Assembly (NCBI GenBank): GCA_019429445.1
Contig: JAHYIW010000013.1
Span: forward strand, 1-64,000
From: Desulfuromonadaceae bacterium
GTDB lineage: Bacteria > Desulfobacterota > Desulfuromonadia > Desulfuromonadales > JAHYIW01
Direction: 5' to 3'
Length of the DNA: 64,000 nucleotides
Positions 11,547 through 13,986 of the stretch are shown in pieces. Each line of letters begins with the position of its first letter. Within the stretch, counting starts at the first letter, position 1. The translations under genes were made by a program, and so were the position numbers. Under the pieces are notes generated by a model. It saw only the letters and a program-made list of their open reading frames with translations. It was not told where the DNA came from and searched no databases.

Positions 11547-12575
11547 ATGGTGAAACAAGCTGTAATTATTAACGATACCAGTTGGGAGAACCACCACGGG
11601 TGCCGTCGTGTGATGGAAAATCTTTACTTGGGGCTAAACAATGCCGGGATCAGCGTCCTAAGTGCCTACCCGGTTGGTAGAGACTGGCGCAAAAATATAG
11701 CTTTTTGTGAAGATATTTGTCGGAGTGATTTAGTTATTGTGAACGGGGAGGGGACCGTCCATCATGATTTGCCAATGGCATGGAGTCTTGTGTCTGCGGG
11801 CGCTTTTGCGGCAAAACATAGTGTCCCGTCTGTTCTGTTGAATGCTACATGGTATGCCAATAGCTCAGAGTTAGCCGTCAGCGCACGTTCTTTCAACCGT
11901 ATTTATGTGAGGGAGAGTCGTAGCCAGGCCGAATTAGCTTGCAACGGTGTTAAATCAACGGTTGTTCCCGATCTCACTTTTATGTCTCCTTGTGACGGTG
12001 ACGCCACTGTTCAGCGTTCTGGATTGGCTGTAACCGATTCTGTTTATGCTGATTTGAGTGAACAGTTATACCGTTTCACCTTAGACAATAAACAGGTCGA
12101 GTTTCTCCCGCTGTTAGCTCCTTATCGGATTCGTGAGTGGAGTGTGAAAGCTGTAAGAAAGGCAGTTAGTTATAAACTTTACGGATTATTTGGCCAACTT
12201 CTGGAGCCGTTCGGGGGAGTCCGGCAGCATTACATCAGCATGAGATATGTCCGGTGTTCTGTTTCTGACTTCATTCAGGCGGTATCTCACTGCAAATTAC
12301 TGGTAAATGCACGTTTTCATGGCCTTTGCTTTGCGCTGCAGACAAAAACCCCTTTTCTAGCCCTTTCTTCTAATTCGCATAAAGTAGAGGCGTTGCTTGA
12401 AGATGTCGGCGTAGGGCTGGATCGCTTTGTTTCAGAAGCGACAATCAGTCTTGAAGATTGCCGAGAGAGGGCTGAAACTGGTTTCAGTTTAAAAGAAGTC
12501 GATGCCATTGAGAAGTACAATCTGGAAGCAAAATCAAAGATCGCAAATATGTTTTCTGAGATTGCAAGTATTTGA
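11547..12575 (+). CDS. Polysaccharide pyruvyltransferase-family protein
   Basis: A 342-residue protein of the PS_pyruv_trans family (CsaB-like), whose characterised members attach pyruvate ketals to surface polysaccharides or act as glycosyltransferases. Family marks are the early DTSWENHHGCRRVMENL, the NGEGTVHHD motif near residue 75, VPDLTF near 150, the ARFHGLCFAL motif near 255 and the ending helix region KVEALLEDVGV. The ATG at 11547 is preceded by TAGGGGCC, which could serve as a ribosome site. It lies between the AT-rich transferase and an insertion sequence. The substrate cannot be inferred. Confidence 0.8.
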   Translation: MVKQAVIINDTSWENHHGCRRVMENLYLGLNNAGISVLSAYPVGRDWRKNIAFCEDICRSDLVIVNGEGTVHHDLPMAWSLVSAGAFAAKHSVPSVLLNATWYANSSELAVSARSFNRIYVRESRSQAELACNGVKSTVVPDLTFMSPCDGDATVQRSGLAVTDSVYADLSEQLYRFTLDNKQVEFLPLLAPYRIREWSVKAVRKAVSYKLYGLFGQLLEPFGGVRQHYISMRYVRCSVSDFIQAVSHCKLLVNARFHGLCFALQTKTPFLALSSNSHKVEALLEDVGVGLDRFVSEATISLEDCRERAETGFSLKEVDAIEKYNLEAKSKIANMFSEIASI

Positions 12576-12669
12576 CCTTCTTCTTGAGAACTCAAGTTTA
12601 GAGTTTCGTGATCTTTGAAAATTTGTCGAAGTTGTAAAAAAAGTGTTGACACAGCGACCACCCTGTGAT

Positions 12670-12755
12670 GCCGCGCCTTCAAAGCGAATTGAATTTAGAA
12701 AGCTTTGAAGGCGCGGCCTCCTGAAGAAAGTTCCACCCTTTCTTCAGGAGGCCGC
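12670..12755 (+). promoter_or_regulatory. Two overlapping, mutually exclusive RNA hairpins before the transposase
   Basis: The first stem is a perfect 16-bp inverted repeat (12670-12685 with 12702-12717). The second is a perfect 18-bp inverted repeat (12713-12730 with 12738-12755) with a seven-base loop. They share bases 12713-12717, so both cannot form fully at once. The second stem buries the AGGAGG ribosome site (12746-12751) and ends one base before the ATG at 12757. This is a layout expected to block translation of the transposase. The stems may also be part of the insertion-sequence end. Confidence 0.8.
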
Positions 12756-12756
12756 T

Positions 12757-13272
12757 ATGGATACCAAGGGATATAGCCGTATCCCCCAATCCCTGTACGA
12801 CGCTATCACATTTCTGGCGCAGGCGCTGCCAAAACGTTCGGTTCCAACCTTTCTGGAACTGCTGTTTGGTGCGATGCTCACCCAAAATGGTTTTGTCACT
12901 GAAGCCTGGTTAATGATCAAACCCCGGCGCCACTGGACCAGTTATTTTAAATGGCTACAGAAGGGCTGCTGGTCATGGGTTGCTCCTGGATTGCAAACGG
13001 CCCGGCTCGCTTTACAACGAACAGAAGATTCGCGCTGTTATGTCGCCATCGACGATACGGTCGTCTTTCGCTGTTCACGTAAAGCACCTGAGTCACACAT
13101 CCACCATCAGCATGGATGTAAGGTCAATCGTCCCGTTTATGTCCGGGGACAGGACTGGGTCACCTTGACTCTGGTGTTACCGCAGGGATGGCGTTCCTTG
13201 GCGTTGCCGATACTTTCCTGGTTAGCCAGAAAGCAGCCATTGGCACTCGAAATCGGGAAAATTCGCGCCTGA
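12757..13272 (+). pseudogene. IS701-type DDE transposase, C-truncated
   Basis: About 165 of the expected roughly 400 residues remain. The match to the DDE_5 (IS701-like) transposase family covers LYDAITFLAQALPKRS, then CYVAIDDTVVFRC with the first catalytic Asp, then KAPESHIHHQHG and NRPVYVRGQDWVTL. After ALPILSWLARKQ the frame ends in EIGKIRA, and no further transposase motifs (second Asp, Glu) are found before the next gene. The insertion sequence is therefore dead in cis. It separates the pyruvyltransferase-family gene from a CgeB fragment, and probably removed the front of the latter. Confidence 0.8.
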
Positions 13273-13410
13273 AAAACGGGATAAAAAGCTGGATAGACCG
13301 CCTGATCGGCGCAAGAGAGCTTAACTTCTACAATTTTCAGTTTTCAATGATCGCTCCCCAGCGTCGAATCAAGCCGACTTGGGGAGGGGTGTAACTCCAA
13401 ACTACACTTT

Positions 13411-13986
13411 ATGGAATATGCCGCGCAAGAAGGAATCATTTCCTCCAGCTACCTGCCTTTGGCGTGCAATGCAAACATTTACCAACACAAGAATCACGGG
13501 AAGAGAGACGCGAGACTGGTTTTTGTCGGGGCTTACGCTGACAATCGGGAAAAGGTTTTGCGGGAGATAAAACGACCGGTGTTGGTGGTCGGAAAACATT
13601 GGGAAAAATTGTCGGGTTCGGAGCATGCTTTTCGCGCCCGCCGGGTTTCAGTGCAAAATGTTGCGCGGTATTACAATCAACACATCGGCGTGATCAATAT
13701 CAAAAACAGCGGTAATGTTGTGAACGGTCTTAATATGCGGACGTTTGATGCCCCGGCTTGCGGCTGTGTTGTCCTCAACGACAACATGGGTGATCTTGAC
13801 CGCTGTTTTGAGGTTGATAAAGAAATTCTCGTCTATCACAACCCCGATGAACTGAATGCACTTTACGAGAGAATCGTCGCGGATGATATCTGGCGACGTG
13901 ACATTGCCGCCGCCGGGCAGCGACGGGTATTGAATGAACATCTCTACACGCATCGCTTGCAAACCATTATTACAGATTTGTTCTGA
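13411..13986 (+). pseudogene. CgeB-like glycosyltransferase, C-terminal fragment
   Basis: The 191-residue frame is the back half of a CgeB/DUF3880-type glycosyltransferase: YLPLACNANIY, LVFVGAYADNREKVL, then YYNQHIGVINI, GLNMRTFDAPACG and EKEIL-like DKEILVYHNPDEL. The conserved GLNxRTFEAPACG segment is the donor-binding site. Such proteins normally have 300 or more residues with an N-terminal Rossmann domain, which is absent here. The frame stays open back to about 13380 without a start, and insertion-sequence remains lie directly upstream. It could be expressed from ATG 13411 but would lack the acceptor domain. Confidence 0.65.

Follow-up and report, generated by a model that had tools for sequence, protein, structure and literature searches.

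Mobile elements persist by keeping transposase scarce. In IS10 and IS50, protection from read-through transcription depends on an outer arm that is missing from the internal transcript. IS200 combines an HUH transposase with an antisense RNA and Hfq, and Ellis et al. in 2015 reportedly found that secondary structure in its tnpA mRNA suppresses transposase translation independently of transcript origin. To our knowledge, no strand-sharing double hairpin occurs in IS200. The 5'-UTR of the ISPpu9 tnp mRNA is predicted to fold over its ribosome-binding site (RBS), weakening of the RBS-burying structure raised reporter activity 26-fold, and the leader of this element, which uses two small RNAs, limits translation in cells (PMC8450116).

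The leader described here precedes a transposase reading frame in the window, the whole 64,000-nucleotide stretch of DNA from a Desulfuromonadaceae bacterium that was analysed. Like the ISPpu9 leader it is predicted to fold over the RBS, and both prediction and covariation place the RBS in a stable 5'-UTR structure. However, where ISPpu9 has two small RNAs, the window group has two tandem hairpins that share a strand, in an unrelated element and with no small RNA detected. The proposed suppression of transposase translation by mRNA structure, whatever the transcript origin, is common to IS200, which differs in its HUH transposase, antisense RNA and Hfq and lacks the double hairpin as far as we know. 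As in IS10 and IS50, transposase expression in the group would be low and in part determined when translation initiates (background in PMC4265352), but the arms of its locking stem adjoin each other and the predicted thermodynamic direction is reversed.

A relic insertion sequence and its family placement

The leader belongs to an insertion sequence (IS) with the following parts, TIR denoting a terminal inverted repeat:

12591..13407, + strand: internally deleted IS copy of 817 bp (from its TIR-to-TIR length and its match to the G000:C32 copy)
12591..12608, + strand: left TIR, CTCAAGTTTAGAGTTTCG (CTGAAGTTTAGAGTTTCG in relatives)
13388..13407, - strand: right TIR
12757..13272, + strand: truncated transposase ORF of 171 aa, with ATG at 12757

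The terminal repeats of the 817-bp copy read CTCAAGTTTAGAG.. and ..CTCCAAACTACAC. About 730 bp are absent near 13232 by comparison with full-length copies and with G000:C32, the other copy in the same genome, which itself carries a premature stop. Full-length relatives measure 1548-1589 bp, and the transposase of intact ones has 433-436 aa. With its 171-aa ORF and its loss of ~0.73 kb, the window copy is a dead relic. Its immediate neighbours are, on one side, a gene (11547-12575) from what is probably a surface-glycan cluster and, on the other, a Glyco_trans_1_2 ORF (13411-13986) that starts 4 bases past the IS end; the glycosyltransferase may have been deprived of its N-terminus.

The transposase had been labelled IS701-type from the sequence. 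NCBIfam agrees to the extent that intact relatives reach 496 bits (cut-off 170) with NF049999 (transpos_IS701_3, 'IS701 family transposase'), whereas the main IS701 model, NF033540, gives only 53 bits and stays below its cut-off of 150. By published criteria the label is doubtful. IS701 was defined by a 4-bp target duplication and an incomplete YREK motif (De Palmenaer 2008; PMC2266710), while the ISPepr1 subgroup of the IS4 family has a complete YREK motif, a 7-8 bp duplication, a length of 1500-1600 bp and ends of the form YT-AA-YTT (PMC2266710). Copies with matching flanks show AT-rich target duplications of 7-9 bp, not 4 bp, and the transposase carries a complete YREK motif, YNRRWSIEDLFNQLK, fitting Y-(2)-R-(3)-E-(6)-K. 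The length of 1548-1589 bp lies within the ISPepr1 range; the end CTGAAGTTT fits YT-AA-YTT, and L097-type ends, CTGGACTTT, are off at one consensus base. Because of the 7-9 bp duplication, the YREK motif and the CT ends, the group appears to resemble IS4, perhaps near ISPepr1, more than IS701, in a comparison with the published criteria. The NCBIfam assignment to the IS701 family and the deviating L097-type ends set it apart from ISPepr1.

Two tandem hairpins and their conservation

The region ahead of the start codon contains these features:

12646..12651, + strand: TTGACA, -35-like, at a fixed spacing to segment a in nearly all relatives
12670..12685, + strand: left arm of stem 1, with segment a at its start (GCCGC in the window, GGCCGC in relatives)
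12702..12717, + strand: right arm of stem 1, with segment a' (GCGGC, 12713-12717) at its end
12713..12730, + strand: left arm of stem 2, with segment a' at its start
12738..12755, + strand: right arm of stem 2, holding the Shine-Dalgarno sequence (SD) and segment a'' (GCCGC, 12751-12755)
12746..12751, + strand: SD, AGGAGG, inside the right arm of stem 2

Stem 1 (16 bp) and stem 2 (18 bp, with a 7-nt loop) are both perfect, as an earlier note on this DNA had recognized; they have the five bases 12713-12717 (GCGGC) in common, and the downstream stem, again as described there, hides the ribosome site and abuts the start codon, a single base separating it from ATG 12757. The further claim that the stems exclude each other applies to those five bases only, for the minimum-energy fold contains both stems, one of them shortened; in the model, the two would compete for the shared bases and otherwise coexist. 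Positions 12640-12790 fold with a predicted energy of -69.8 kcal/mol, whereas shuffled versions average -36.0 kcal/mol (z = -8.3; reached by 0 of 200 shuffles).

Together the stems are predicted to form a near-continuous helix of ~29 pairs. Such a helix could be processed, for instance by RNase III, or be bound by an antisense RNA like Asr9 of ISPpu9, with cutting or pairing setting the exposure of the SD; the antisense RNA of ISPpu9 can open a leader of this kind (PMC8450116). A simple scan, which covers sigma-70-type sites only, found no antisense promoter, and we regard this explanation as most improbable.

The earlier note had allowed that the arms might be terminal repeats plus an accidental target palindrome. 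This proved not to be the case: the TIRs lie elsewhere, at 12591 and 13407, ~80 nt or more distant, and the arms are found in every full leader. In most leaders the loop of stem 1 contains a motif like TTGATnTTTAGA, resembling the terminal repeat CTGAAGTTTAGA, which may reflect transposase contact or chance. Rfam has no family for the leader and returned only sub-threshold chance matches.

Leaders were gathered from the order, class and phylum of the window and from plasmids, and 13 distinct ones were aligned with plain MAFFT and analysed with RNAalifold. Both stems were recovered, and 14 of the 31 predicted pairs showed double changes. Pair counting on the same leaders showed 95-96% of cells paired and 14 of 27 pairs changed on both sides yet still paired, a number that none of 500 shuffles reached. 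The covariation score was 0.36, compared with 0.15 in shuffles (0/500 reaching 0.36), and fell sharply, to at most 0.13, once the partners were slid. Mapped onto a transposase tree, compensatory double changes fall on ~21 branches and over the four parts of the helices, versus seven changes to or from an unpaired state. L097 and L099, for example, share 88% of their transposase residues, while their stem 1 arms are merely 71% identical and remain paired in each. GGAGG does not vary among the 13 aligned leaders, nor does its position 5 nt ahead of the start codon, whereas the arm facing it covaries; in 11 of the 13, stem 2 retains a U-G pair across from the SD. The compensatory changes that the earlier note had proposed to look for in full-length relatives are thus present in both stems.

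Tandem hairpins occur at the same place down to ~40% transposase identity, including G483 (L126; 42%), where the left arm of stem 1 has changed little, and Acidithiobacillus plasmids (~40%), where a separate closing stem replaces a''. Elsewhere segment a is present in three copies in the order a-a'-a, the third copy being a'', and the triple (GGCCGC/GCGGCC/GGCCGC) stays complementary despite sequence change in three lineages: it reads GGTCGC/GCGACC/GGTCGC in L099 and L147 and GCCGTT/AACGGC/GCCGTT in L127. L098 has a single A-C mismatch between a' and a'', and the G483 leader reads GGTCGCC/GGCGACC, its third copy being the weaker GGTTG.

A covariance model built from the 13 leaders, used as a held-out test, found full leaders in five further class-level genomes (G148, G175, G190, G246 and G181; E values of 1e-14 to 1e-28). 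All five stand before what is left of a copy of this IS, and in four of them the beginning of its transposase can still be read. Extra matches of the model that might have placed the leader before other genes proved to lie in decayed copies of this IS, while low-scoring ones resemble unrelated terminator-like hairpins or IS scraps; the viral contigs searched held no relatives. Coupling of an upstream ORF through the hairpins was rejected, reading frames there varying among relatives. By these sequence searches the leader is confined to this IS group, and both hairpins look like a real, selected feature and not an accident.

Opening energies and a proposed translational brake

Opening energies are thermodynamic predictions, with co-transcriptional kinetics, ribosomes and helicases outside the model. 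In the window, ~16-17.5 kcal/mol would be needed to open the SD when transcription begins anywhere between the outside and 12667, 26-28 kcal/mol for starts at 12676-12713, which remove the left arm of stem 1, and 2-3 kcal/mol only for starts beyond 12722. In the 13 leaders the SD is predicted to be buried by 6-17 kcal/mol when the leader is complete and by 12-21 kcal/mol when the left arm is missing. Opening is cheaper with the left arm in nearly all of them, by up to ~10 kcal/mol for the SD and ~13 kcal/mol for the start region; L013, which has a damaged left arm, gains nothing at the SD. Because the arms of stem 2 adjoin each other, every transcript that starts upstream of that stem (12713) is predicted to have its SD buried, and since burial strengthens on removal of the left arm of stem 1, stem 1 would loosen this lock.

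The first reading of the locus was an IS10/IS50-like filter against impinging transcription, in which transcripts from outside fold and are silent and those from an internal promoter, lacking an arm, are translated. A promoter with starts inside stem 1 is suggested by TTGACA, which almost every relative has 17 nt ahead of segment a (16 in L127) and which is readable at the same spacing in the G483 and Acidithiobacillus leaders, that is, down to ~40% transposase identity. An A-rich stretch lies upstream of it and a GC-rich block occupies the expected -10 position; a simple scan found no -10 box after TTGACA and no sigma-70-type promoter on either strand, and the motif was rejected as part of a standard promoter, its fixed spacing notwithstanding. 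The energies point the other way: starts at 12676-12713 are predicted to be more locked (26-28 kcal/mol) than read-through transcripts (17 kcal/mol), the SD is free only beyond ~12722, and the sign is the same in nearly all 13 leaders. Instead of sequestration in outside transcripts only, all starts upstream of stem 2 would be locked, the inner ones more. The IS10-like direction appears only in the distant Acidithiobacillus leader L135, where a closing stem makes outside transcripts costlier to open (start region 14.8 kcal/mol, versus 6.4 without the closing-stem arm). A filter of the 'outside off, inside on' type, as the earlier note had it, finds no support in these values for this group and is very unlikely.

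The same energies could be read in reverse. The a-a'-a'' exchange would then be a switch with stem 1 as an anti-lock: long transcripts, from outside or from a left-end promoter, would be partly translated and short ones from inside stem 1 locked, so that transcript origin would be read opposite to IS10, most transposase would come from elements reached by transcription from outside, and the palindromes would be rewritten rapidly with pairing kept. Consistent with this, exposing the SD or the start region is predicted to cost less with the left arm in nearly every leader (up to ~13 kcal/mol less), and the a-a'-a repeat persists although its sequence changes. Nevertheless, the SD core is still paired even in the full leader, the short transcripts are hypothetical, and IS elements usually benefit from not being activated by outside transcription; we consider such a switch unlikely.

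The leader probably acts as a constitutive translational brake built into the transposase mRNA, of the IS200/ISPpu9 kind and in a tandem, strand-sharing form. If it folds in cells as predicted, stem 2 would pair the SD and the bases up to the start codon, and stem 1 would hold a', without which stem 2 could not form its outermost five or six pairs. As a and a'' are almost identical in sequence, a' could move between a on its left and a'' on its right at little energy cost, giving two states: (i) the lock extends to the start codon; (ii) the core of stem 2 remains closed, but the start codon and roughly half the SD are free. Stem 1 would thereby prevent an absolute lock, leaving the start codon intermittently free, and the outcome would be low, near-constant transposase translation, largely independent of where transcription originates.

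An undescribed, strongly covarying leader absent from Rfam recurs among IS elements of Acidithiobacillus and of the class and phylum to which the window belongs. It offers a clean system for asking whether a fixed RNA lock or the sensing of transcript origin determines how much transposase an IS makes, and for studying how long perfect palindromes are rewritten with the partner kept.

Copies without hairpins and a possible role of the DNA

Many relatives keep both stems, but a minority lack one or both. Stem 1 is absent from L027, L030 and L020, and both stems from L017, L018, L019 and L036. The losses fall at the GGCCGC repeats, or in L027 at the similar pair GCGACC/GCGGCC, a pattern that deletion of a palindrome would be expected to leave. 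The copies without hairpins also lack the SD, and their ORF is broken in three of four and intact in L018. A link between hairpin loss and broken ORFs is suggestive only, because many copies with two hairpins are broken too. For the translational brake these copies, L018 with its intact ORF among them, are contrary evidence, as is the little-changed left arm of stem 1 in G483 (L126). So is the near absence of G-U pairs and of one-sided intermediates in stem 1, which template switching of DNA would also explain.

The palindromes might accordingly act in the DNA, as binding sites, cruciforms or replication signals. Template switching (quasi-palindrome correction) would then keep their arms matched, making the covariation mutational and the RNA fold incidental. 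In keeping with such a role, stem 1 is almost purely Watson-Crick and has changed by double changes, the hairpins are lost exactly between direct repeats, as palindromes are, and assemblies of multicopy genomes break within them. Against it stand the GGAGG core and its 5-nt placement, which do not vary in the 13 leaders while the opposite arm covaries, the U-G pair opposite the SD, and retention over ~40% protein identity, which requires selection. A strand test comparing G-U with A-C pairs yielded too few independent events. On balance a role confined to the DNA is quite unlikely.

Several other copies showed unusual arrangements. An element of ~1.66 kb is inserted in the loop of stem 1 in L054/L015 (G027:C2 133835-135497), where the transposase is otherwise intact. 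Seven 110-bp 'solo left ends' in G014 that end at the stem 1 loop were considered as products of hairpin breakage and rejected as such, since equal 110-bp right ends exist, one pair abutting; the single, scattered 110-bp IS ends of this one-contig assembly (L067-L073, L080-L089) are best read as assembly truncation at repeat edges. The same genome has a repeat of ~100 bp at several places (L074-L078), ending in GGGAACCAACA (GGGAACTAACA in three copies), one copy of which directly adjoins the IS left end in L066. Beyond about position 1680, L064 contains evenly spaced repeats, GTTTCAATCCACGCCCCCGCGCAGGGGGCGAC, apparently a CRISPR array.
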